This document shows positions 6,409 to 61,936 of a DNA stretch of 64,000 nt, piece by piece. The position numbers and the translations under genes were made by a program. Below the pieces are notes generated by a model that had not been told where the DNA came from, ran no database searches, and saw only the letters and a program-made list of their open reading frames with translations. This DNA is from Candidatus Acidiferrales bacterium (GTDB lineage Bacteria > Bacteroidota > Ignavibacteria > Kryptoniales > JAKASW01), in assembly GCA_035515795.1 (NCBI GenBank), contig DATJAY010000004.1, positions 208,753 to 272,752 on the forward strand, given 5' to 3'. Within the stretch, counting starts at the first letter, position 1. Each line of letters starts with the position of its first letter.

Positions 6409-7575
6409 CTAATTCGGTTTTCTCTTTCCGATTCGGTTCACGATCTTCACAAATTTTTCTGCGGCAGTCGTTATGTCATCTTCGGTGGTGAACCTGCCGA
6501 AAGAAAACCTCACGGTCGCCATAGTTGTTTTGTCGTCCCTCCCGATCGCCTTAATAACATGAGAAGGCTGAAGACTCCCCGAACTGCACGCCGATCCGCT
6601 GGTCACCGCAACGCCTTCAAGATCCATATTAATTATGAGTGCCTCGCCGTCAATTTCATGTTCGCTGCTGTTAATCGACACGCTGAGAATGTTTGGCAAT
6701 GAACTCTCTTCGGGAGAATTAATTATAACTTCAGGAATTTCGGCCGAAATTTTGTTTCTCAAGAGAAGATTAAATTCTGAAAGCCGCATTTGTTCTTTAT
6801 CTGAATCTTGCGCGCATAGCTCACCGGCCTTTGCGAAGCCGACGGCGAGCGGAACGCTTTCCGTGCCGGGGCGGCGATTTCGTTCTTGCGAGCCGCCATG
6901 GAACATCGGTTCAAAGTCGATCCCTCTTTTGATATAGAGTGCTCCGATTCCTTTGGGTCCATAAATTTTGTGTGCGGTAAATGAGGCAAGATCGACATCG
7001 AATTTGTTAACGTCGAATCTTGTCTTGCAGAATGATTGAACCGCATCGGTGTGAAAAAGGACTCCTCTATCGTGTGCGGCCCCTATCAGCTCGGGCAAAT
7101 TCTGAATCGTGCCTATCTCGTTGTTCGCATGAATTATGCTCACCAAAAACGTTTCATCAGTTATGGCATCCTCCAGCTCATCGCGCGAGACGAAACCCTT
7201 TGCATCCACCGGCAGGACGGTCACGTCGAATCCACTTTTCCTCAGCGACTCGGCTGCATTGAAAATGGCATGATGTTCAATTGAAGATATGATCAGATGT
7301 TTCTTGCCCGAATGCGAAAATTTCGCTGCGACTCCGAACAAGGCGGAGTTATCTGATTCTGTGCCGCCGCTCGTGAAGAAAAGCTCGGATTCTCGCGCGC
7401 CGATGAGACCCGCTATTCTTGCCCGGCTGTTCTCAAGCGCCGACTTCGCTTCTCTGCCAAAGCCATGAATGCTTGAGGCATTCCCGAATATTCCTGAAAA
7501 ATACGGGGTCATTGCCTCAACGACTCGTTTATCCGTCGGAGTCGTCGCTGCGTAATCCAGGTAAATCCTTCTCAT
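6409..7575 (-). CDS. Cysteine desulfurase (NifS/IscS type)
   Basis: 388-residue PLP enzyme that removes sulfur from cysteine for Fe-S cluster and thio-cofactor assembly. Seen: N-terminus RIYLDYAATTPTDKRV, the GNASSIHGFGREA region, PLP lysine in SFTAHKIYGPKGIGAL (about residue 200), and the catalytic cysteine loop TSGSACSSGSLQPSHV near residue 325. The longer loop and the motif ACSSG fit group I (NifS/IscS) rather than SufS. No scaffold gene (iscU, sufU) is adjacent, so its partner is elsewhere. It is divergent from the crp-type gene at 7740; the 164 bases between them must hold both promoters. Confidence 0.93.
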   Translation of the reverse strand: MRRIYLDYAATTPTDKRVVEAMTPYFSGIFGNASSIHGFGREAKSALENSRARIAGLIGARESELFFTSGGTESDNSALFGVAAKFSHSGKKHLIISSIEHHAIFNAAESLRKSGFDVTVLPVDAKGFVSRDELEDAITDETFLVSIIHANNEIGTIQNLPELIGAAHDRGVLFHTDAVQSFCKTRFDVNKFDVDLASFTAHKIYGPKGIGALYIKRGIDFEPMFHGGSQERNRRPGTESVPLAVGFAKAGELCAQDSDKEQMRLSEFNLLLRNKISAEIPEVIINSPEESSLPNILSVSINSSEHEIDGEALIINMDLEGVAVTSGSACSSGSLQPSHVIKAIGRDDKTTMATVRFSFGRFTTEDDITTAAEKFVKIVNRIGKRKPN

Positions 7576-51497: not shown

Positions 51498-52193
51498 ATG
51501 CCTTACAGCATAGGGCAGGTAACGGAAGACGGCGACAATCTCCAGCTGACGATGCAAAATCACAGGGCGGAGATGATCGCAAAGGGCTTCAAAGAGGCTC
51601 GATTCCAAAGCTTCGACGACTCGCTTAATGCGGTGGTCAGGAAAAACTCTACGCAGAAAGCCGCACACTCGACGCTTCTGCAGAGCACTTCGGATCAGAA
51701 CGATGCCATCGACGAAGGAGTGAAGATGGTGACGAAGATTCAAGACGCTGCAAAGTCGGCTTTCGGGAAAAACAGGACGAAACTGAACGAATTCAAGATC
51801 GGTGCGAAGAAGCCATATGTCGTCAGCAGGCTCGCCGCTCTCTTGGATTACCTCGCCGGCGTCTGCACAAAGTACCATGATGAGCTAATTGAGAATGGCC
51901 TGACCGAGGACGATTTCACTGCGATCACGGCGGCGTACACAAACCTTGTTTCGACAGATGCGGTGCAGGAGCATTCGAAGAAGCTGCGCAATGTAGCGAC
52001 AGAAACGAGAGACGATGCCGTTGCCGCGCTTCAGGAGGAAATGTTCAAGGTAAGAAGCTTTGCTAAGGCGGCTTTTGCAGGTAACAAGGCAGTGCTTGAG
52101 GAGTTCAAGCCGATCAAGAAGGGAAAAGGGAGAGCGGCAGCGAAGCCTCCTGTTCCGGTTCCGGAGCCGCAGGCGGCAACACAGCCGAAGTAA
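51498..52193 (+). CDS. Unknown helical protein with internal duplication
   Basis: 231 residues, not recognised. ATG after GAGGAGAAGG. Mostly charged helix with no signal peptide or membrane segment. Two halves resemble each other: AKSAFGKNRTKLNEFKIG (about residue 84-101) and AKAAFAGNKAVLEEFKPI (about 186-203), which suggests a repeated helical domain of ~100 residues. The end is a proline-rich tail (PPVPVPEPQ). It lies beside the 21-bp repeat and the REP/transposase region. No function is claimed. Confidence 0.75.
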   Translation: MPYSIGQVTEDGDNLQLTMQNHRAEMIAKGFKEARFQSFDDSLNAVVRKNSTQKAAHSTLLQSTSDQNDAIDEGVKMVTKIQDAAKSAFGKNRTKLNEFKIGAKKPYVVSRLAALLDYLAGVCTKYHDELIENGLTEDDFTAITAAYTNLVSTDAVQEHSKKLRNVATETRDDAVAALQEEMFKVRSFAKAAFAGNKAVLEEFKPIKKGKGRAAAKPPVPVPEPQAATQPK

Positions 52194-52216
52194 ACGAAAA
52201 CAATATGAGGCCTCTC

Positions 52217-52250
52217 AACCTTGTCAAGGTTAAAAAACCTTGACAAGGTT
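52217..52250. repeat. REP-like hairpin 1, upstream of the transposase
   Basis: AACCTTGTCAAGGTT (52217-52231), loop AAAA, AACCTTGACAAGGTT (52236-52250). The arms are exact reverse complements (15-bp stem), and each arm alone is also a near-perfect palindrome of 7+1+7. It ends 17 bases before the transposase ATG, so in RNA it could affect access of ribosomes. Confidence 0.9.
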
Positions 52251-52267
52251 AAGGCCATGGTGAGCAG

Positions 52268-52834
52268 ATGCGATACGAGACCGATTCATATTACCATGTT
52301 TACAACCGTGGAGCACACTCCCAGCCGATCTTCTTGGAACAAGAGAACTATAGATATCTCGTTTCATTGTTCGAGAAGAACTCGGAAAGGTACGACACCA
52401 TAGTAGCTGCATATTGCCTTATGCCGAATCATTATCACCTTGTGCTGAGGCAAAAACACGACGGTTCAATCGGTTCGTTTCTTAGAACGACGTTCAATAC
52501 CTACACTCAAGCCATGAACAAGCGATTCGGAACAAGCGGTACGTTATTTCAAGGCCAGGCAAAGATAAGGCAAATCAGTACTGAAGCGTACTGTTTGCGA
52601 ATTGTCCCGTACGTCCATTTGAATCCCGTAGCTGCAAAGCTGGTCAGTTCGGTAGACCGATGGCAATTCTCGAATTACCTCGAGTGGATCGGGAAACGAA
52701 AAAGTATCCTCATGGACATTGAATTGCGAAATGGTTATTTCCCGAATCCGGAAGATTACGAGATTTTTGTAGGAAATTATCAAACCGAAAGGGAACGTAA
52801 AGAACTCGGTGGGTTCTTGTTTGATGAATCTTGA
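52268..52834 (+). CDS. REP-associated tyrosine transposase (RAYT, Y1_Tnp/IS200-like)
   Basis: 188 residues. Single-strand HUH transposase: N-terminus YYHVYNRGAHSQPIF, HUH motif in LMPNHYHLVLRQ, KRFGTSGTLFQGQ and the block with the catalytic tyrosine IVPYVHLNPVAA. The family (TnpA-REP) cuts and moves REP hairpins and is usually a single-copy chromosomal gene without terminal inverted repeats. Here hairpins of one sequence family lie on both sides (52217-52250 and 52847-52880) and a third at 53693-53728, which ties the gene to its REP substrates. All catalytic motifs appear intact. Confidence 0.92.
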   Translation: MRYETDSYYHVYNRGAHSQPIFLEQENYRYLVSLFEKNSERYDTIVAAYCLMPNHYHLVLRQKHDGSIGSFLRTTFNTYTQAMNKRFGTSGTLFQGQAKIRQISTEAYCLRIVPYVHLNPVAAKLVSSVDRWQFSNYLEWIGKRKSILMDIELRNGYFPNPEDYEIFVGNYQTERERKELGGFLFDES

Positions 52835-52846
52835 AAACCCGGATCA

Positions 52847-52880
52847 AACATTGTCAAGGTTAAGAAACCTTGACAATGTT
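52847..52880. repeat. REP-like hairpin 2, downstream of the transposase
   Basis: AACATTGTCAAGGTT (52847-52861), loop AAGA, AACCTTGACAATGTT (52866-52880), an exact 15-bp stem. Compared with hairpin 1, one base pair differs and both arms carry matching changes. It is preceded by GGATCAAAC, which also precedes hairpin 3. Confidence 0.9.
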
Positions 52881-52903
52881 ATTGGTTATAAACGGAGATG
52901 CAT

Positions 52904-53332
52904 ATGAAAAAGATAAATTTTAATCATTTCAATTTGCTGTTCGTGTCCATCTTCATTGCCGGGTGCGGGTTTCAGGCTGCAGTTTTTGACCAGGCGGCTT
53001 ATGAGCATAGTGTTTCCCTCAAAGTCGATGCGCTTAACCTCATGGGTAAAGCGACGTCTCCTTACGATTCGTGCCGGACAGAGATTGAGGCCGTGATAGT
53101 TGAATTCCAGAAAGCCTACGAGTATGCAAAGGGACTTCCGAATAACGATGAGACCGTCAAGCAATATGAAATCATGATGGACCCGCAGCAAGCCTCGTTC
53201 TTCGGATTCCTCGCAAGGTGGGAATCGGAAGGACGGCTTGGTGCAACTTTCGTGGGCGATGCCAGGGCTGAAGTAAGCCGTCATTTCGATGATGTAATCG
53301 GACTGGAGAGCGGCAAGAAGAAGAAAACCTAA
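52904..53332 (+). CDS. Unknown lipoprotein
   Basis: 142 residues, not recognised. ATG 52904 follows CGGAG; the ATG at 52898 is too close to it. Lipoprotein signal ends IFIAGC (Cys at about residue 21). The mature part is helical, with one Cys, and ends in a lysine tail (GLESGKKKKT). First of three small genes running in the same direction after the transposase. Confidence 0.75.
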   Translation: MKKINFNHFNLLFVSIFIAGCGFQAAVFDQAAYEHSVSLKVDALNLMGKATSPYDSCRTEIEAVIVEFQKAYEYAKGLPNNDETVKQYEIMMDPQQASFFGFLARWESEGRLGATFVGDARAEVSRHFDDVIGLESGKKKKT

Positions 53333-53347
53333 AAAGGAGCATCTGTC

Positions 53348-53671
53348 ATGTCAGAATTCGATGATTTCTGGAAAGCTCTTACGGCAGGGATAGAAAATTT
53401 GGCCGTCGGGGCATTGAAAGATTACAAAGATCAAGTCGTGAAAGATGGTCAGGACTTTGCTAATGCACTGAAGGCAGATCTTACGTTGTGGACGACACAG
53501 CTTGCCAATCACGATATAACCGATAAGGATTTCGAGTGGCTGGTAGAGAGCAAGAAAGCCGAGGCAAAACTCCTTGCGCTCAAGCTGGAAGGGTTGGCAA
53601 AGGAAGCACTCAGTCGGTTTGTCGATGATCTTGTCAACCTGATTATTACTACGGCTGGAAAGTTTTTCTAG
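53348..53671 (+). CDS. Unknown small helical protein
   Basis: 107 residues, not recognised. GGAG ribosome binding site, 15 bases after the lipoprotein stop, so likely cotranscribed. No signal peptide. Amphipathic helices throughout (WKALTAGIENLAVGALKDY; KLEGLAKEALSRFVDDLVNLI) with a hydrophobic end LIITTAGKFF. It could associate with a membrane or form a coiled bundle. Confidence 0.7.
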   Translation: MSEFDDFWKALTAGIENLAVGALKDYKDQVVKDGQDFANALKADLTLWTTQLANHDITDKDFEWLVESKKAEAKLLALKLEGLAKEALSRFVDDLVNLIITTAGKFF

Positions 53672-53692
53672 ATGTTTCGGATCAAACCTTCA

Positions 53693-53740
53693 AACCTTGT
53701 CAAGGTTTCTTTTAACCTTGACAAGGTTACACAAGGTTAC
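53693..53740. repeat. REP-like hairpin 3 with extra half-copies
   Basis: AACCTTGTCAAGGTT (53693-53707), loop TCTTTT, AACCTTGACAAGGTT (53714-53728), an exact 15-bp stem with the same arms as hairpin 1. CAAACCTT is doubled before it and ACAAGGTTAC is tandemly doubled at its right end (53721-53730, 53731-53740), as if part of the element had been duplicated. GGATCAAAC lies upstream, as with hairpin 2. Confidence 0.88.
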
Positions 53741-53757
53741 ATTAAAAAGGAGATAAG

Positions 53758-54066
53758 ATGGAATCGCGTATTGGATCAGTCAGCGAGCTGGCAGTAAAAA
53801 TCGCACAGGATTCGGACCTCGCAGCAAAAATTAAGCAAAACCCGGCCGAAGCAATTGCCAGATTGGCGGCACCAGTGATTCAAACGGACGTTTGGATTTA
53901 CCGTATGGTGGTCGGCTTTCTCGGGTTGGCCGTGCTGGCCGGGGTAATCGGTGCCATCATACTATCCATGGCGGGGAAGCCGACTCCCGAAGTGCTTGTT
54001 GCTTTAGGATCTGCTGCGGTAGGTGCTTTAGCTGGACTGTTGGCTCCGTCTCCGGCAGGCAAGTAA
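53758..54066 (+). CDS. Unknown small protein with two membrane segments
   Basis: 102 residues, not recognised. GGAG site just before the ATG. A soluble N-terminus (SVSELAVKIAQDSDLAAKIKQNPAEAIARLA) recalls the short helical leader-like modules of some secreted peptides, but no peptide-maturation gene is nearby. Two membrane helices follow, at about 47-70 (VVGFLGLAVLAGVIGAIILSM) and 77-97 (VLVALGSAAVGALAGLLAP), with a short loop. The layout resembles holins or small effector proteins; no function is claimed. Confidence 0.7.
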   Translation: MESRIGSVSELAVKIAQDSDLAAKIKQNPAEAIARLAAPVIQTDVWIYRMVVGFLGLAVLAGVIGAIILSMAGKPTPEVLVALGSAAVGALAGLLAPSPAGK

Positions 54067-54429
54067 TATGTCGGGAGACGGTTAATCTGTAGCATAAGAC
54101 GGAAGCCCGGGATGGTTTCGCCTCTTTTTATTTGTCATTCGAGGGAGCGATTCGCGTGATGAGAATTGTTGGTTGAGTATTATCAGTATCGGTGAGCGAA
54201 TAGGTGCATTGCCAATATGGAAATTCCACAGTTGCGCCATGATATAGAATCATTGAATTGCATAATCGGCGACGCTATATTTTACAAGACTCATTCATTA
54301 ACTAAATGGCTTATGAAAGCAATATTTTGAGCCCCGGAAACTCAGGGAAGGGCTGGCTTAATAACATGGGGATATTTCACAGTGAATCATTGGCGGATTT
54401 GACTGATACCTGTTTGGAGGAAAAGAAGA
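54067..54429. other. Gene-free gap of 363 bases before the three-gene operon
   Basis: No gene is seen on either strand. It contains a promoter-like pair at 54253-54281. I found no direct repeats shared with the other side of the operon (58012-58135) that would mark an inserted element. Confidence 0.5.
54253..54281 (+). promoter_or_regulatory. Candidate promoter of the GHKL/methyltransferase operon
   Basis: TTGAAT (54253-54258) and TATATT (54276-54281) with 17 bases between, about 150 bases upstream of the ATG at 54430. Read by eye only. Confidence 0.4.
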
Positions 54430-55746
54430 ATGGACACCGTTAGTTTTGAACCCACGAAGCAATTGTTTATCGATGTTCTTACGAAGGACATCAGTATTCA
54501 TGATTGCGTTCTTGACTTGGCAGACAATTCTGTCGACTCATATGTTTGGCACAAATTAAGTCAGCGAAGGACTATCCAGTTAGGATTTGGCAAGGATGAG
54601 TTCCATGTTTACGATGATTGTGGAGGTATCCCTGCAAAGAAGGTAAGAGAGGAGGTGTTTCGTTTCGGGTTTTCGGATCTTAAAGCAAGGAGGTCCACGA
54701 TCGGGTTTTATGGTATTGGTTTGAAAAGGGCGGTGTTCAAAATAGCAAGGGAAATTAGATTTGAAACCGATGATGGCAATAAATACACTCGTGTGGATAT
54801 CAACGTTCATGACTGGGCCGAAAAAGAGCACGAATGGACATGGCCATTACATCCCAGCTCTGGAAAATCAAAACTGAAAAAGGCAGAGAAACCATACACT
54901 AAGATTGTTATGTCTGATCTAACAGACGAAGCAAAAGAGACTTTCGATGTAGCTTTCATAAATGATCTCAAGGAGACAATAGGTATTTATTATACCCGAT
55001 TTATTCAGAATAAAATTACTTTTATGGTCGACAAAGAAAAAATCGGCCCGTTCGATCTTGGAATTAAGTATAGCAAAGAATATCCGCCTGCCAATCATAT
55101 AGAAGAGTATGAGGGAGTGAAAATTCATATAACGTGTTGGATTCAGCCGTGGGAGGGACGTCGTACCGAGAAAGAACGTGGACGTCAAGGCTGGAACATT
55201 TTTATGAATGATCGGTTGGTTATCCATGATGACGCTTCGCCTAAAACTGGATGGTCAGGCGACGAAGGTCAGCTTCCGAAGATGCACAGCATCTTCAATC
55301 AATTTCGCGGTTTGGTTTTATTAGAATCGAAAGATCCATCAAAACTTCCCATAAATACTTTAAAAAACGATTTTCATACTGAAAATGTTGTATATAAGCA
55401 TTTGTTGAGTGAGATGATTCACGCTGCACGTCCATTGGTAAATTTTCTATCCAAGAAATACGGCCGTGCAGATGAAATTGAAGCAAAAGCAGTTCAAACG
55501 GCTATGGGATCAGAGGGCCAATCCGAAATAGAGACTGTTTCAATCGATAAGCTTACGAAGAATCGTGACTTTAAGGTTACTTCTACTCCTAAAGCAAATG
55601 ATGGGTTGGTGATGATTAGATATTGGAAACCGAAAGAACAAGTTGAATTAGTGAAAAACTATTTAAAAATAACAAAGAATCCTGACGTTGGAGTTAAGAC
55701 TTTTGACTACTTTGTAAAGGTTGAGGGGCTAGAAAATGAAAAGTAG
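54430..55746 (+). CDS. GHKL-type ATPase (HSP90/MORC/MutL-like)
   Basis: 438 residues. The N-terminal ~200 residues hold the GHKL motifs: N box VLDLADNSVDSYVW (Asp where the catalytic Glu of ELIDNS is usual), G1 DDCGGIPAKKV, and G2 with lid STIGFYGIGLKRAVFK. A second domain follows with a possible catalytic lysine region (DPSKLPINTLKNDFHTENV). ATP-driven dimer closure is expected. MORC/MutL-type ATPases act on DNA, and proteins of this kind recur in restriction and defence loci. GGAGG nine bases before the ATG. It overlaps the next gene by 11 bases; base composition is A+T-richer than the housekeeping genes around it. Confidence 0.85.
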   Translation: MDTVSFEPTKQLFIDVLTKDISIHDCVLDLADNSVDSYVWHKLSQRRTIQLGFGKDEFHVYDDCGGIPAKKVREEVFRFGFSDLKARRSTIGFYGIGLKRAVFKIAREIRFETDDGNKYTRVDINVHDWAEKEHEWTWPLHPSSGKSKLKKAEKPYTKIVMSDLTDEAKETFDVAFINDLKETIGIYYTRFIQNKITFMVDKEKIGPFDLGIKYSKEYPPANHIEEYEGVKIHITCWIQPWEGRRTEKERGRQGWNIFMNDRLVIHDDASPKTGWSGDEGQLPKMHSIFNQFRGLVLLESKDPSKLPINTLKNDFHTENVVYKHLLSEMIHAARPLVNFLSKKYGRADEIEAKAVQTAMGSEGQSEIETVSIDKLTKNRDFKVTSTPKANDGLVMIRYWKPKEQVELVKNYLKITKNPDVGVKTFDYFVKVEGLENEK

Positions 55747-56719
55747 TAGCTTCGAGAGGATAAACTACACGTTGCGTCCTAAAAAACAAATTGAACGTAA
55801 AATCTTGATCGAATTTTTTCAGCAGGTTTCCAAACATTCAAGGGAGATGGATATATGTAAATACCACTATATCGGAATGGGTTCTATTTTCTATTATGAT
55901 TTCATCCTATTCCATAAGTATTTACATATTAGACGAATGACTTCGATAGATGACAAAATCAACATCAAGAGATTCGAATTTAACAAGCCATATGATTTTG
56001 TGACCTTTCAACCCCAAAAGACGACAGATTTTTTTGGCGAAAATTCCTTAACTGACAAAGTAATAATTTGGCTCGATTATGATTACTCACTCTTCAGAAG
56101 ATTGAAAGACGGAACGATACAAACAACCAACATACTTAAAGACATTGACCTGATTACACAAAGCGTCAAAAATAAGAGTTTCTTAATCATAACCATAAAT
56201 GCAGGCTTTCCTAAACAAATAAAGGATCAGCTTACCGTGATCAGCCTTTTCAGAAAGTGGATGTCCAGGGAATTTAAATCTGGTGGAGAAATTGACGACG
56301 AGAAAGGTTTTCCTTTGGTCCAAAATATTATCCTGAATTTTATTGAGGAAAAACAAAAGTTTAATTCAACGAAATTCTACAAATTGTTCTCATTCAAGTA
56401 TAATGATGGGGCTCCGATGTTCACCCTTGTCGGGGTTTTTGATGACTCGGATGCCTTTCAGAAATCAGTTGTAAATGAGAGATTTGTAAAGATAGATGAC
56501 AGCATTGTTGATATCAACGTTCCTATACTCACTTATCGTGAGAAGCTTTATTTGGATTCACGTATTGAAGGTCTGTCGGAAAAGAATAAGGCACTTGATG
56601 ACTTAAAGTTTAAAGAGGAGTTGTCTAAGTTAGAATTTGAGTTGGATGACAGCGGCCTTATAAAATCTTATTTGGAATTTTATCCCTACTACCCGCAATA
56701 TTATGAAGGGGTGATATGA
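55736..56719 (+). CDS. Unknown protein, possibly with methyltransferase-like fold
   Basis: 327 residues, not recognised with certainty. Early on, YHYIGMGSIFYYDFILFHKYL followed by RMTSIDDK looks like the glycine loop and acidic strand end of a Rossmann methyltransferase, and VIIWLDYDYSL could be its fourth strand, but clear catalytic motifs are missing. The rest is helical and charged (LDDLKFKEELSKLEFELDD). Length is clearly longer than a simple methyltransferase. It overlaps both neighbours (11 and 4 bases), so it is a fixed part of the operon. It could be the effector, a DNA-recognition subunit or a pseudoenzyme. Confidence 0.75.
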   Translation: MKSSSFERINYTLRPKKQIERKILIEFFQQVSKHSREMDICKYHYIGMGSIFYYDFILFHKYLHIRRMTSIDDKINIKRFEFNKPYDFVTFQPQKTTDFFGENSLTDKVIIWLDYDYSLFRRLKDGTIQTTNILKDIDLITQSVKNKSFLIITINAGFPKQIKDQLTVISLFRKWMSREFKSGGEIDDEKGFPLVQNIILNFIEEKQKFNSTKFYKLFSFKYNDGAPMFTLVGVFDDSDAFQKSVVNERFVKIDDSIVDINVPILTYREKLYLDSRIEGLSEKNKALDDLKFKEELSKLEFELDDSGLIKSYLEFYPYYPQYYEGVI

Positions 56720-58011
56720 GGGGTATTCGGTATTTAATAGCTGATGCTAGAAAAAGTAAACAAATCTTCCTAAAACATGGATACCCTAAGCCTACTCTTA
56801 TTCTGACTTCTCCACCTTACCATGATATTAAGAACTACGGGAATTCGAAAAATCAACTCGGTTTCAACCAGACGTATGAACAATATTTAAAGGACGTTGC
56901 TAATGTCTTTCAGCAGTGTTACGAAATATCGAAACTCAATGCGACATTCTGGTTGGTTGTGGATACAATCAGGAAAAACGGTAGTACCGTGACCCTGCCT
57001 TTTGATATAAACAATAAGCTGCATGAACTGTATAAGAACGATACTTGGAATTTGAAAGAAATCATAGTCTGGAACAAATACAAGAACACACCATGGCAAG
57101 CAAAGGGACGCCTAAAAAATCAATTTGAGTATATTCTTTTCTTTACCAAAGGGAGAAATTTCAAATACCGAATCGACAAAACACGAGAAATAACCGACTA
57201 TAAGAATTGGTGGCTCACTTATCCAGAAAGATACAATTCTAATGGTAAGGTCCCGAGCAACATATGGGAATTCACAATCCCAATTCGAGGATGGGGAAAT
57301 AGCCGCCAAGAACACATGTGTCCTTTTCCTTTCCCGCTCATAGAGAGAATATTGTCCATTTCATCTGACAAAGGGGACATGATTTTTGATCCATTTGTCG
57401 GTTCTGGATCGACCTTGGCTCTTGCGAACGAGATGGGAAGAAGAGCAATTGGTTTCGATGTGAATTCAAAATATAAGAGAGAGTTTGAGGAAGATGTTCT
57501 GGTGGGAGCTAGGTTATATTGGAGTAAGCGTAAACAAGAATTGGATACGGTCAAAAAGAAGATAAGCAAATTCAGATCCATCAATCTAAGCCTCAGGAAG
57601 CTAAAGGCTGGTTTTGAAATAATCGAAAATCAGCCACGGAATGTAAAGAGGCAATTCCTTTTCTTTGCTCTCTTTGCCACGAGAAGGCGTGCCCAGGCTG
57701 ACCTTATCATGGTTCCAAAATCAGGAAATCAAAAGCAACTCAAGACCTCTGGGATTCAGCGGATGGCGAATGATATTTCTGAAATTTTTAGAACTAGCAT
57801 AAGCGTTAAAACCATCAGCAAGCAAAGGTTCAACCATTTATTTCCACGACGCCAGTCTTTCTTCGCATACAACAAGGACCATATTTTTAAGTACTTATTT
57901 AAAATGCGATCAAAGGAAATTGTTAATGCAAACGGTACGATCAAACCAGGTCTTTTATTCTCAGATCTAAAGCTCGCTCTTGATCCAAAGAATGCATTAG
58001 AAAAACTGTAG
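56716..58011 (+). CDS. Beta-class DNA methyltransferase (N4-cytosine or N6-adenine) with C-terminal extension
   Basis: 431 residues. Catalytic motif IV LTSPPYHDIKNYG (residues ~29-41) comes before SAM motif I FDPFVGSGSTLALANEMGRRAIGFDVN (~220-246), the order of beta-class enzymes; the TSPPY form is common among N4-cytosine enzymes. TRD-like sequence lies between (WNKYKNTPWQAKGRLKN). After the methyltransferase a ~165-residue extension follows (VKRQFLFFALFATRRRAQADLIMVPK; RMANDISEIFRTSISVK) that I do not recognise. ATGA overlap with the preceding gene. No recognisable endonuclease gene is adjacent, so it is either a solitary modification enzyme or part of a non-classical system. Confidence 0.87.
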   Translation: MRGIRYLIADARKSKQIFLKHGYPKPTLILTSPPYHDIKNYGNSKNQLGFNQTYEQYLKDVANVFQQCYEISKLNATFWLVVDTIRKNGSTVTLPFDINNKLHELYKNDTWNLKEIIVWNKYKNTPWQAKGRLKNQFEYILFFTKGRNFKYRIDKTREITDYKNWWLTYPERYNSNGKVPSNIWEFTIPIRGWGNSRQEHMCPFPFPLIERILSISSDKGDMIFDPFVGSGSTLALANEMGRRAIGFDVNSKYKREFEEDVLVGARLYWSKRKQELDTVKKKISKFRSINLSLRKLKAGFEIIENQPRNVKRQFLFFALFATRRRAQADLIMVPKSGNQKQLKTSGIQRMANDISEIFRTSISVKTISKQRFNHLFPRRQSFFAYNKDHIFKYLFKMRSKEIVNANGTIKPGLLFSDLKLALDPKNALEKL

Positions 58012-58135
58012 AATCTTTTGTAATAATTCCTTTCTTAAAGACTAAGGTCTACCGTATCCATTTTTCTTTTCAACAAACGAATGGAAATCTTTTTCATTGC
58101 GGAGTCTCAATTTCGAGACGATCCAAACCACAGCC

Positions 58136-58396
58136 TCATCTCTTCTCCCCCGTATTGCTTGCGAAGTCATTCACGGCCCGCACCAGCTTGTCGATGTGTC
58201 CGCAGACCATGGTATCGAAGGCTTTGTATCCCTCGGGCTGCAGATTGAATGCTTCCGGATAACTCTTCGCGATGATTCTCTTGACAATTGGAGTCAGGTC
58301 GTTTTCCAACGTCTTCATTTTCCACTCTTCCTCCATGGCCTCATCCCAGGCTTTGTCAAGCTCTTTCTGTCCTTCTTCCGTAATATTCTCCACCAT
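58136..58396 (-). CDS. Unknown small acidic helical protein
   Basis: 86 residues, not recognised. Strong ribosome binding site on the minus strand (AGGAGG, eight bases before the ATG) supports it as real. Predicted all-helical (EEGQKELDKAWDEAMEEEWKMK; AVNDFASNTGEKR), with one Cys. It converges on the three-gene operon. Confidence 0.6.
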   Translation of the reverse strand: MVENITEEGQKELDKAWDEAMEEEWKMKTLENDLTPIVKRIIAKSYPEAFNLQPEGYKAFDTMVCGHIDKLVRAVNDFASNTGEKR

Positions 58397-58684: not shown

Positions 58685-61600
58685 ATGAAAAGAACAGCTT
58701 TGCTCTTTGCAGCATTAATGTTTGCCGGTGCAGTCCAGCAGGCGACCGCGCAAATAGACGCGAGACTACTTCAGTATCCCGCGGTATCGAAAACACAGAT
58801 CGTCTTCGAATATGCAGGCGACCTGTGGGTGTCTCCGAAGGAAGGTGGAACGGCCAACCGGCTCACCACTCCTCCCGGAGACGAATTCCTTCCGCGTTTT
58901 TCTCCCGATGGATCGAAGATCGGGTTCACGGGCAACTACGAAGGAAACGTGGACGTGTATGTCATCCCGTCCAAAGGAGGAATGCCGTTACGGATCACGC
59001 ACCACGGCTATCCGGACAGGATGGTCGACTGGTATCCCGACGGCAAAAATCTTCTGATCGCGACCTCGATGGAAAGCGGCAGACAGAGATACGACCAGTT
59101 CTATAAAGTATCCGCCGAGGGAGGAATGCCGGAAAAACTTCCTATTCCCTACGGTGAATTCGGAACTGTATCCCCCGACGGAAACAAGATCGCCTATACT
59201 CCGATGTCGCAGGCATACCGGACGTGGAAGAGATACCGGGGCGGATGGGCGGCGGACATCTGGGTGTATGATCTCGAAAAAGGGACGGCGGAGAACATCA
59301 CGGACAATCCTGCAAACGACGAATTCCCGATGTGGCACGGCAGCACGATTTACTTTCTCTCCGACCGTGGCGAGAATGAAAGGGCAAATATCTGGGCTTA
59401 TGATATTAATACGAAACAGACGCGGCAGATAACCGACTTCAAAGATTTCGATATCCATTTCCCGTCGATCGGACCTGACGATATAGTCTTCGAAAACGGC
59501 GGCAAGCTTTATCTCCTCGACCTTGCCACGGAAAAATATCACGAGGTCAAGATCGAAGTAGTGACCGACGAGATAACGTTGATGCCGAAACCGGAAAGCG
59601 TCGAGAAGATGATCGGCAGCTTCGCCGTCTCCCCCGACGGCAAGCGCGGAGTATTCGAAGCCCGCGGCGACATTTTTTCAGTGCCCGCAGAAAACGGGAA
59701 CGTAGTCGATTTGACGAATACATCCGGAGCCTTCGAAAGATTTCCTGCGTGGTCTCCAAACGGAAGATACGTTGCATATTGGAGCGATCGATCAGGCGAG
59801 TACGAGCTCACGCTTAAGGACATGGAAAATCCCGCTGCGGAGAAGAAGCTCACTTCATACGGTCCCGGCTTCAGATACAATATTTACTGGTCGCCCGACA
59901 GCAAGAAAATAGCTTTCATCGATAAGGCTATGGACATCTACATTTATGATCTCGACAAAGACAAGACCACTAAAGTAGACAGAGAAGAATATTATTATGA
60001 GGGAGGTTTGGTTGGCTTCAAGCCATCATGGTCCTCGGACAGCCGCTGGCTTGCCTATGCAAAAGATTTTGACAACAGGCACACGGCGATCTATATTTAC
60101 GACTCGAAAGAAGCGGAGGTCCATCAAGTTACGAGCGGCTATTACAACGATGACGCGCCCTGTTTCGATCCCGATGGGAAATATCTGTATTTCTTTACGA
60201 ACAATACATTTGCTCCCGTGTACGGCGACATGGACAACACGTTCATCTACCCAAACTCAACGAGGATCGCCGCAGTTACTTTAACAGATACTCTTGCCTC
60301 CCCGCTCGCGCCGAAGGACGATACGACTTCGATCAAGAAGGATGAAGGGTCGAAGAAGGAAGAGCCGAAGAAGGATGAGGGAAAGAAGAGTGAAGAAAAA
60401 ACGAAGGAAGTGCGAATCGACTTTGAAGGCATCGCGGAAAGGGCAGTTATACTTCCGCCTCCCGCCGGCAACTACAACAATTTAGAAGCGGTTTCCGGGA
60501 AAGTTGTTTACCTGAAAGGTCCGAACAGCGGATCGGCGGATAAGAAGAACTCGATCGGATATTACGATTTGGATAAGAGGGAAGAGAAGACAATCTCGGA
60601 CGACGCGTCGAATTACATGATTTCAGCCGACCACAATAAGATCATGATCGCCAAGGATGGCTCATACTTCATCACAGACGTCGCTCCCGATCAGAAGCTC
60701 GAGAAGAGGATGCCGACGAGCCAGATGGAGGTGACGATCAACCCGCGCGAAGAATGGCATCAGATTTTCAACGACGTCTGGCGCTTTGAGCGAGACTACT
60801 TCTACGATCCGAACATGCACGGCGTCGATTGGAACGAGATGCGAAAGCAATACGGCGCACTGATAGACAACTGCATGACGCGGTCGGATGTCAACTACGT
60901 CATCGGCGAACTGATTTCCGAGATGAGCTCGTCGCACACCTACAGGTTCGGCGGAGACGTTGAGCAGTCCAAGCAGAGAGCGGTCGGATATTTAGGAATC
61001 GACTGGGAGCTCGCGAATGGAGCGTACAGGATCAAGACAATCATCAAGGCCGCGCCATGGGACAGCGATGTAAGGTCTCCGCTCGATCAGCCCGGAGTCA
61101 ATGTGAAAGAAGGGGATTACATACTTGCCGTGAATGATGTTCCCATCGACGTGACAAAGGACCCTTATGCGGCGTTCGAAGGTCTTGCGGGAACAACTGT
61201 TGAATTGACCGTCAACAGCAAACCGTCGATGGATGGCGCGAGGAAAATCGTGGTTGAAACGATGACCGACGAAGCAAGACTCCGCCAGCTTGCGTGGATG
61301 GAGTCGAATAGAAAAATCGTTGACAAAGAGACCGGCGGCAAAATTGGCTACATTTACGTCCAGGACACAGGTGTTCCAGGTCAGGACGATCTTGTCAGAC
61401 AATTGACGGCACAGTTCGACAAACAAGGATTGATCATCGACGAAAGGTTCAACAGCGGCGGACAGATTCCGGACCGGTTCATCGAGATGCTCAATAGAAA
61501 ACCGCTCGCATTCTGGGCCGTAAGAGACGGAAAAGACTGGCAATGGCCGCCTGTGGCCAACTTTGGTCCGAAGGTGATGTTGATAAACGGATGGAGCGGC

Positions 61601-61936
61601 TCGGGCGGCGACGCGTTCCCGGATTATTTCCGCGAGGCCGGTCTCGGTCCGCTCATCGGCATGAGGACATGGGGCGGGCTGATCGGGATCACCGGCGCAC
61701 CGCCGTTGATCGATGGCGGAGCGATCACTGTTCCGACATTCAGAATGTACATGCCCGATGGAAAATGGTTTGCCGAAGGACACGGAGTCGATCCCGACAT
61801 AAAAGTTGTCGACGATCCAGCTCAGCTTGCAAGAGGAATCGATCCGCAGCTCGAGAAGGGAATTGAAGTCGTGATGCAATTATTGAAAGATCATCCGCCG
61901 GTGAAACCTGAGCGGCCGGCGTACGAGAAGAGATAG
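58685..61936 (+). CDS. Tricorn protease homologue (S41 family)
   Basis: 1083 residues. Signal peptide 1-22 (ending TAQ), so periplasmic or secreted, unlike archaeal cytosolic tricorn. Order: six-bladed and seven-bladed propeller region (DGSKIGFTGNYEG; SPDGNKIAYTP; WSPNGRYVAYWSD; SPDSKKIAFID), a lysine/glutamate-rich linker near residues 545-575, a C1 helical domain with EMSSSHTYRF (active-site Ser-His), a PDZ domain (GDYILAVNDVPID), and the C2 catalytic domain with the nucleophile in INGWSGSGGDAFPDYF (Ser 971). Usual length. Cuts peptides; substrate unknown. Confidence 0.93.
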   Translation: MKRTALLFAALMFAGAVQQATAQIDARLLQYPAVSKTQIVFEYAGDLWVSPKEGGTANRLTTPPGDEFLPRFSPDGSKIGFTGNYEGNVDVYVIPSKGGMPLRITHHGYPDRMVDWYPDGKNLLIATSMESGRQRYDQFYKVSAEGGMPEKLPIPYGEFGTVSPDGNKIAYTPMSQAYRTWKRYRGGWAADIWVYDLEKGTAENITDNPANDEFPMWHGSTIYFLSDRGENERANIWAYDINTKQTRQITDFKDFDIHFPSIGPDDIVFENGGKLYLLDLATEKYHEVKIEVVTDEITLMPKPESVEKMIGSFAVSPDGKRGVFEARGDIFSVPAENGNVVDLTNTSGAFERFPAWSPNGRYVAYWSDRSGEYELTLKDMENPAAEKKLTSYGPGFRYNIYWSPDSKKIAFIDKAMDIYIYDLDKDKTTKVDREEYYYEGGLVGFKPSWSSDSRWLAYAKDFDNRHTAIYIYDSKEAEVHQVTSGYYNDDAPCFDPDGKYLYFFTNNTFAPVYGDMDNTFIYPNSTRIAAVTLTDTLASPLAPKDDTTSIKKDEGSKKEEPKKDEGKKSEEKTKEVRIDFEGIAERAVILPPPAGNYNNLEAVSGKVVYLKGPNSGSADKKNSIGYYDLDKREEKTISDDASNYMISADHNKIMIAKDGSYFITDVAPDQKLEKRMPTSQMEVTINPREEWHQIFNDVWRFERDYFYDPNMHGVDWNEMRKQYGALIDNCMTRSDVNYVIGELISEMSSSHTYRFGGDVEQSKQRAVGYLGIDWELANGAYRIKTIIKAAPWDSDVRSPLDQPGVNVKEGDYILAVNDVPIDVTKDPYAAFEGLAGTTVELTVNSKPSMDGARKIVVETMTDEARLRQLAWMESNRKIVDKETGGKIGYIYVQDTGVPGQDDLVRQLTAQFDKQGLIIDERFNSGGQIPDRFIEMLNRKPLAFWAVRDGKDWQWPPVANFGPKVMLINGWSGSGGDAFPDYFREAGLGPLIGMRTWGGLIGITGAPPLIDGGAITVPTFRMYMPDGKWFAEGHGVDPDIKVVDDPAQLARGIDPQLEKGIEVVMQLLKDHPPVKPERPAYEKR

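Follow-up and report, generated by a model that had tools for sequence, protein, structure and literature searches.

A GHKL ATPase and a PF20553 protein that travel with exchangeable DNA-modification genes: a candidate methylation-linked defence system

Organization of the locus

The window, which is the whole 64,000-nucleotide stretch of DNA analysed, contains three overlapping genes on the forward strand. The features of the locus are:

54416-54420, + strand: GGAGG, resembling a ribosome-binding site, ahead of the gene 1 ATG; identified by eye
54430-55746, + strand: GHKL (MORC-like) ATPase gene (gene 1), 438 aa ORF
55736-56719, + strand: PF20553 (Methyltransf_35) protein gene (gene 2), 327 aa ORF
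56716-58011, + strand: DNA methyltransferase gene (gene 3), 431 aa ORF

The ORF coordinates give overlaps of 11 bases between genes 1 and 2 and 4 bases between genes 2 and 3, the same values as in the sequence-only reading of this DNA. The GGAGG sequence falls within repeat D3 (54412-54435). The G+C content of positions 54430-58011 is 0.381 vs 0.474 for the remaining window. This is below the entire range (0.439-0.518) of 533 stretches of equal length outside the trio in the same window, so the visibly low G+C that had been claimed is borne out.

The ORFs flanking the trio (51498-58396) include a transposase. The other five contain no restriction endonuclease family in Pfam. The window resembles G255 from position 58743 onward and G329 from position 58736 onward, both points lying inside a tricorn-like gene. 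Neither G255 nor G329 has a blastn match to the window ahead of these points in the 18 kb compared, and the exact ends of the island were not found.

The three proteins

The gene 1 protein contains both GHKL motifs (DDCGGI and GIGLK) on which an assignment as a MORC/MutL-like ATPase had been based, and it matches PF13589 HATPase_c_3 (E 1.5e-9). The N-terminal HATPase_c_3 domain is followed by an S5/transducer-like part, with a loop that we take to be the T-x-K loop, and by a conserved C-terminal tail (I396, G421, F425). HATPase_c_3 is the only Pfam domain above the cut-off; no TIR, RE-fold or HNH domain is found. Residues D62, G66, G92, G95, G97 and R100 are kept in 108/108 relatives and N33 in 107/108. 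As the acidic N-box residue, 106 of the 108 relatives have Asp (D29), in contrast to the usual Glu of MutL, gyrase and MORC. The MORC S5 motif GhXhhpXXRhl occurs in its strict form in 86/108 and 29/120 sequences. With one position freed, it occurs in 106/108 and 119/120, and at 0.001-0.002 in shuffled sequences. The window GHKL has GWNIFMNDRLV, which misses the strict motif by one position, with M at the polar position. The gene 1 ATPase appears MORC-related, which places it near the MORC/paraMORC restriction-modification neighbourhoods published in 2008 (PMC2292703).

The middle protein had been read as lacking a clear family. This is not congruent with its Pfam match, PF20553 Methyltransf_35 ("Putative O-methyltransferase"), which covers residues 4-324 of 327 with an E of 3.2e-63. 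The protein has a conserved loop that resembles a SAM site and many near-invariant residues, among them R14/K17/R21, Y45, G47/G49, D55, R79/N83/P85, W112-D114-Y115, Y222/D224, E269 and P320. The structure model (pLDDT 89.8, pTM 0.89), a check that the sequence-only reading had called for, predicts a class I SAM-dependent methyltransferase (Rossmann-like) fold. The model has 463 PDB matches at E <= 0.001, and the 50 listed are mostly methyltransferases and spermidine synthases. The nearest folds include RNA methyltransferases. Comparison with solved structures by sequence gives no match (best 0.56). Two other identities for gene 2 were rejected. An ordinary metabolic enzyme does not fit its neighbourhood, since a GHKL gene adjoins PF20553 in the mapped loci. 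The exceptions are L014, at a contig end, and L006, where one inserted ORF (IS66-like by eye) intervenes. A response-regulator-like partner was rejected because the protein has no PF19192 match.

The gene 3 protein matches PF01555 N6_N4_Mtase (E 1.7e-43) and PADLOC MTase_II (E 1.5e-36), in agreement with the beta-class DNA methyltransferase proposed earlier. A TSPPY motif precedes DPFxGSGS, an order that we take to indicate the beta class, acting on N4-cytosine or N6-adenine. The C-terminal part of about 150 aa is weakly conserved and is present in 13 aligned relatives. The best 25 of its 67 PADLOC matches are all methyltransferases. With gene 3 represented in PADLOC by these 25, no restriction endonuclease family appears among the matches listed for the three proteins, as the sequence-only reading had also reported.

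Recurrence and exchange of modification partners

The same three genes, in the same order and overlapping, are also found in L002 (an Armatimonadetes MAG), L093, L010 and L092. Recurrence of the trio as a unit in these four loci indicates that the arrangement is more than chance. More broadly, GHKL and PF20553 genes occur together in distant bacteria and prophages next to DNA-modification genes, in a patchy distribution, and the pair travels with exchangeable modification systems. It is accompanied by a beta-class N4/N6 methyltransferase in the window and the four loci above, by C5 cytosine methyltransferases in prophages and a Pf phage, by DISARM at two loci (L005, L009) and by Dnd/GmrSD at one. 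In the DISARM cases, from Microvirga terrae and G165, the pair lies between drmMI and drmA. These loci are presumably class 1, to judge from drmD and drmMI. L010 is a chromosomal copy with housekeeping-like neighbours, and no phage genes are seen beside it (both by eye).

In viral contigs, searches with the window's middle protein or with alignment A1 gave no relatives, because the prophage branch is distant. Relatives missed in this way were recovered with the GHKL alignment as query. Among the 75 viral contigs from the GHKL profile search, PF20553 is adjacent in 63 and a C5 methyltransferase lies within 1 kb in 73; a control gene gave 0/80. In E. coli, one 5-kb copy is covered to 80% or more in 172 of 5,426 genomes, and all three genes are named in the 15 matches listed. 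The pair also occurs, together with a C5 gene, in the Pf phage PfAC20. This phage has two genes annotated as cytosine methyltransferase; where its publication describes the phage as holding only an incomplete restriction-modification system, it does not state there which of the two is meant.

The remaining 12 of the 75 viral contigs have no adjacent PF20553, and no divergent PF20553 was found in them at E 10. Eleven of the 12 have longer GHKLs (571-631 aa). In the mapped loci, PF20553 genes and longer GHKL C-termini exclude each other: every GHKL beside a C5 methyltransferase comes with one of the two, never with both. Nine of the long tails align with one another. H141 is invariant in 9/9, and the Arg of an R-x4-6-H motif is not evident. 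One tail model is similar to HEPN domains, at a level for which the aligner warns of chance resemblance between helical folds. An HEPN-like fold is predicted for the longer C-terminus with less certainty than the fold of PF20553. Pfam finds no HEPN in 10 long GHKLs and nothing over the cut-off in their tails except a low-complexity DUF963 (L087), and a tail compared with solved structures by sequence gives no match (best 0.074). The alternation of PF20553 with the longer tail likely places PF20553 in the effector position.

Comparison with described systems

The nearest kin of the trio are the restriction-modification neighbourhoods of prokaryotic MORC/paraMORC ATPases described by Iyer, Abhiman and Aravind (PMC2292703). 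As in the trio, a GHKL plus S5 ATPase lies next to DNA methylases and the spread is patchy. The partners named in sections of that paper are helicases, RE-fold, HNH, EcoRII-like, HKD, Vsr and TIR proteins and DNA methylases; unlike in the window, no further methyltransferase-like protein is among them. A DNA methyltransferase gene overlaps the pair in the window, just as a C5 gene lies close by in most viral loci. The C-terminal RE-fold or TIR of paraMORC3/paraMORC4 is not found by Pfam in the window GHKL, and not every paraMORC4 has a fused TIR. Fusions of paraMORC with HEPN (Ymh family) also occur in restriction-modification neighbourhoods, according to the part of PMC3710099 that treats them. 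The 11 long GHKLs, with a putative HEPN-like C-terminus and an adjoining C5 methyltransferase, resemble these fusions. In contrast, the window and most loci have a separate PF20553 gene in place of the longer tail.

The HEF_HK/Response_reg_2 systems, as outlined in PMC8011034, likewise combine a GHKL protein, a small alpha/beta partner, a DNA methyltransferase and often Vsr. However, the window proteins have no PF19191 or PF19192 match at E up to 10, and PF20553 is another family. DISARM shares the pair at the two loci where it is nested, but no drm gene, drmA and drmB included, is among the window's scanned flanking ORFs. The Shedu protein VcSduA is similar in that its N-terminal GHKL is hypothesized to control an antiviral effector (PMC12137116). 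That effector is a fused PD-(D/E)XK nuclease, and the word methyltransferase is absent from the paper's main text. As in type II restriction-modification, the trio contains a DNA methyltransferase, but a cognate endonuclease was not found beside it.

PADLOC 2.0.0 returns no system for the GHKL or PF20553 parts of the trio. Among nine proteins from four relatives, it gives only a weak MzaB match in two (E 8e-4 and 1.1e-3). Neither PADLOC nor PHROGs has a name for the pair. The PHROGs matches, phrog_20521 and phrog_19983, are both of unknown function. In the open-licence papers surveyed, no description was found of the GHKL + PF20553 pair or of PF20553/Methyltransf_35.

Proposed mechanism and alternatives

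A modification-linked defence role is best inferred for the trio, because the unit is conserved and patchy, its GHKL and PF20553 parts match no PADLOC system beyond the weak MzaB match, and the pair recurs within DISARM, next to Dnd and in prophages as cargo. Tentatively, with a probability of about 0.43, the trio provides antiviral defence gated by methylation, with the ATPase predicted to switch on PF20553 upon DNA without the self mark. The gene 3 methyltransferase would mark self DNA. The GHKL dimer would close on DNA like its MutL, MORC and TopoVI relatives and read the self mark or its absence. Contact with DNA that lacks this mark would make the ATPase activate the PF20553 protein. This effector would act most likely on a nucleic acid, perhaps RNA, and abort infection. 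RNA is suggested because the architectural substitute resembles HEPN and the nearest folds include RNA methyltransferases.

The proposed reading is methylation-linked immunity whose effector may have a SAM-enzyme fold, so that the predicted weapon would be methyltransferase-like and not a nuclease. Prophage genes annotated as "ATP-binding protein", "O-methyltransferase" and a lone "DNA cytosine methyltransferase" would become one testable system, and the trio offers a bacterial setting in which the handling of methylated DNA by MORC-type ATPases can be examined, a question in eukaryotes too. Less likely is a version in which the MORC-type ATPase reads DNA methylation and, on encountering foreign DNA, releases a SAM-dependent methyltransferase as the weapon. 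This would be immunity through toxic methylation, by a plug-in pair that works with 5mC, N4/N6, phosphorothioate or DISARM marks.

Unlikely, too, is a pair that only senses or licenses, detecting or tagging foreign DNA that is cut by a nuclease encoded elsewhere. MORC ATPases are tied to nucleases in passages of the 2008 paper (PMC2292703), and nucleases lie near the pair at several loci: in DISARM (L005, L009), as GmrSD (L003), as a type II restriction endonuclease with Vsr (L006) and as a DUF2161 PD-(D/E)XK protein (L002). The window trio itself has no nuclease family among its listed matches, however, and L010 is flanked by housekeeping-like genes. Across the prophage loci, the recurring genes among those profiled are GHKL, PF20553 and C5.

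The frequency of the pair in viral contigs, the adjoining modification genes and the predicted methyltransferase fold of PF20553 would suit anti-restriction or hypermodification. In this case the GHKL would power the modification of a mobile element's DNA by the methyltransferase and PF20553, which would protect the element. This is distinctly unlikely. In the DISARM and Dnd contexts the DNA is already modified, modification does not readily account for the swap against a longer, putatively HEPN-like tail of the GHKL, and L010 is chromosomal.

An addiction (toxin-antitoxin-like) module, in which the pair becomes toxic to the cell once the methyltransferase is lost, would keep the element in place with phage defence as a by-product. 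Such behaviour is classical for restriction-modification systems, and the tight gene overlaps and patchy spread are consistent with it. Sequence does not separate it from defence, but the nesting of the pair in DISARM, a defence operon, makes it quite improbable as the primary role.

An epigenetic or lysogeny switch, in which promoters carry the methyltransferase's mark and the pair, as its reader, controls expression, has a precedent in phage orphan methyltransferases that can regulate life cycles (as noted in part of PMC7549136), but it is very improbable, as the trio has no DNA-binding regulator family in Pfam and the partner type varies (N4/N6, C5, Dnd, DISARM) while the pair is constant, which suits self-marking over a fixed regulon.

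The three genes of the window

Three overlapping ORFs had been claimed here by the sequence-only reading, and ORF calling bore this out: all lie on the + strand, and their neighbouring ends are shared over 11 and 4 bases.

54430-55746, +, gene 1, GHKL ATPase (HATPase_c_3 match, E 1.5e-9)
55736-56719, +, gene 2, PF20553 Methyltransf_35 (residues 4-324 matched, E 3.2e-63)
56716-58011, +, gene 3, DNA methyltransferase (N6_N4_Mtase match, E 1.7e-43)

The trio has a G+C content of 0.381 versus 0.474 in the remaining window, and 533 other window stretches of equal size range from 0.439 to 0.518. PADLOC 2.0.0 recognises gene 3 alone, as a methyltransferase, and none of the three proteins (0/3) matches NCBIfam above its cut-offs. 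Neither "PF20553" nor "Methyltransf_35" was found in the open-licence literature, against which, together with PADLOC of 2023, novelty is judged.

In gene 3 a TSPPY motif close to the start precedes DPFVGSGS (residue 225), the order of the beta class. The S-P-P-Y motif leans to N4-cytosine methylation. The solved relatives of gene 3 include N4-cytosine and adenine enzymes alike. The window's genome holds 11 N6_N4_Mtase matches, one of them (G000:C2:113528-113968) with an in-frame TAA.

The ATPase was compared with 108 relatives, 33 from the GHKL alignment and 75 viral. D62, G66, G92, G95, G97, R100, T310 and K312 are retained in all of them (108/108). The N-box acid, usually Glu, is Asp (D29) in 106/108. 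Against solved structures, a profile picks up TopoVIB at E 1.2e-7, followed by MORC2/3/4 with E values between 4e-4 and 4e-3. The S5-domain motif typical of MORC, as defined in PMC2292703, is present in strict form in 86/108 relatives and with one position free in 106/108; the window ATPase misses the strict form by that single position.

Recurrence of the trio

The trio recurs in the window's gene order in an Armatimonadetes MAG (L002), which has a second copy with gene order unchanged (L093). The same order is found in L010, from a genome that belongs to the class of the window, where the surrounding genes by eye seem housekeeping. It is also found in L092, whose genome was sampled in the phylum survey centred on the MAG and where the ATPase is reduced to 291 aa near a contig end. 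Downstream of the L002 trio lies a DUF2161 PD-(D/E)XK gene (L002:4748-5440); no gene of this type was found directly after the window trio.

When contigs in the protein database are paired by equal size, the best PF20553 relatives share 33/119 contig sizes with the best GHKL relatives (control with sizes shifted by 1-300: mean 1.3, maximum 7) and 29/119 with the methyltransferase list. Eleven contig sizes occur in all three lists (119 used per list), and for one of these 11 sizes the proteins carry the label Methanocellales archaeon throughout.

The distribution of PF20553 is rare and patchy. Four genome surveys, each counting its centre genome, found it in 2/296, 2/294, 2/124 and 2/298 genomes, the first two samples overlapping in part. 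It is absent from the 12 same-genus genomes surveyed (0/12).

The pair and its modification partners

The ATPase and PF20553 form a pair that is constant across loci, and the modification partner varies. At other PF20553 loci the pair is retained and the N4/N6 enzyme is absent. A C5 cytosine methyltransferase gene adjoins the pair in the Pf phage PfAC20 and adjoins PF20553, where the contig starts, in the phage's viral-contig relative (L014); in L095 the order is C5, GHKL, PF20553. The R-M system of PfAC20 is listed as incomplete, in the form of a cytosine methyltransferase (PMC11878078). Two PfAC20 genes are annotated as such (ORF3 and ORF9), and ORF3 alone adjoins the pair. A dcm gene or pseudogene follows PA0718 in 21/182 Pf prophages (PMC7549136); this dcm may be the C5 gene beside the pair.

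In Microvirga terrae (L005) and in genome G165 (L009), the pair lies between DISARM drmMI and drmA, and in the latter DrmMI and DrmA are scored by PADLOC. Downstream of the L009 operon are a second, distant GHKL gene (L009:1400-3361), whose 653-aa product scores 18 bits against the profile, and an ORF that looks Vsr-like by eye (L009:912-1379). In Aliarcobacter (L003), a GmrSD-type gene stands beside the pair, and the opposite (minus) strand encodes DndC, which scores 409 bits, along with a DndD/PbeC-like protein. The small gene at 6989-7372, which separates the Dnd genes from the pair, matches nothing in PADLOC. On S. meliloti pSymA (L006), the pair is split by an inserted 560-aa ORF; genes for a type II REase, a C5 enzyme and a Vsr (431, 200.9 and 89 bits, respectively) then follow on the other strand. 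In E. coli (L090), the pair is prophage cargo, with the annotations ATP-binding protein, O-methyltransferase and DNA cytosine methyltransferase, and at least 80% of this 5-kb stretch is present in 172/5,426 E. coli genomes.

Association in viral contigs

The GHKL alignment picked out 75 loci among viral contigs. PF20553 is adjacent and on the same strand in 63/75, a C5 gene lies within 1 kb in 73/75 (all except L044 and L054), and both hold in 62/75. Near-copies are numerous, and counts by cluster are the fairer measure: 47 clusters at 90% identity give 35 with PF20553, 45 with C5 and 34 with both. Around an unrelated prophage gene, C5 lies within 1 kb in 0/80 loci and anywhere in 7/80, this control being limited to the best 80 of 408 close E. 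coli-type relatives. C5 is present in 4/4 control loci with GHKL, contigs that also belong to the 75, versus 3/76 without; PF20553 without GHKL occurs in 0/80.

Searched from PF20553, 24/25 viral loci have an adjacent GHKL gene, the exception beginning at a contig end, and 25/25 have C5 within 3 kb. This mostly re-checks the same set, because just two of the 25 contigs (L014 and L212) are new. In L061:8389-9382, PF20553 is in two overlapping ORFs (124 and 237 aa), with GHKL and C5 intact alongside.

Proposed function

We tentatively propose, with a probability of about 0.43, that the trio is a methylation-gated antiviral system. The ATP-powered GHKL protein would read the mark and switch the system on, and PF20553 would serve as effector. 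The weakest steps are the PF20553 substrate and whether PF20553 kills or tags. Among the rivals, the pair might only sense, with an outside nuclease acting, or the DNA might receive a further modification. The trio might also be an addiction module or an epigenetic switch.

Surroundings of the trio

In two of the 12 same-genus genomes that lack PF20553, G255 and G329, similarity to the window starts at 58743 and 58736, inside the gene after the trio. This gene (58685-61936) encodes a Tricorn-like protease, has 73% DNA identity to G255 and finds up to 14 matches per same-genus genome (seven searched). Between the trio and an upstream transposase are three small ORFs (52898-54066; 144, 107 and 102 aa) with no Pfam match at E 0.01. 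The transposase is a Y1 (IS200-like) ORF (PF01797; 52268-52880 region), followed by a perfect 15-bp hairpin at 52847-52880, of which a near copy lies at 53693-53728. The hairpins and the transposase are likely a REP/RAYT-type pair.
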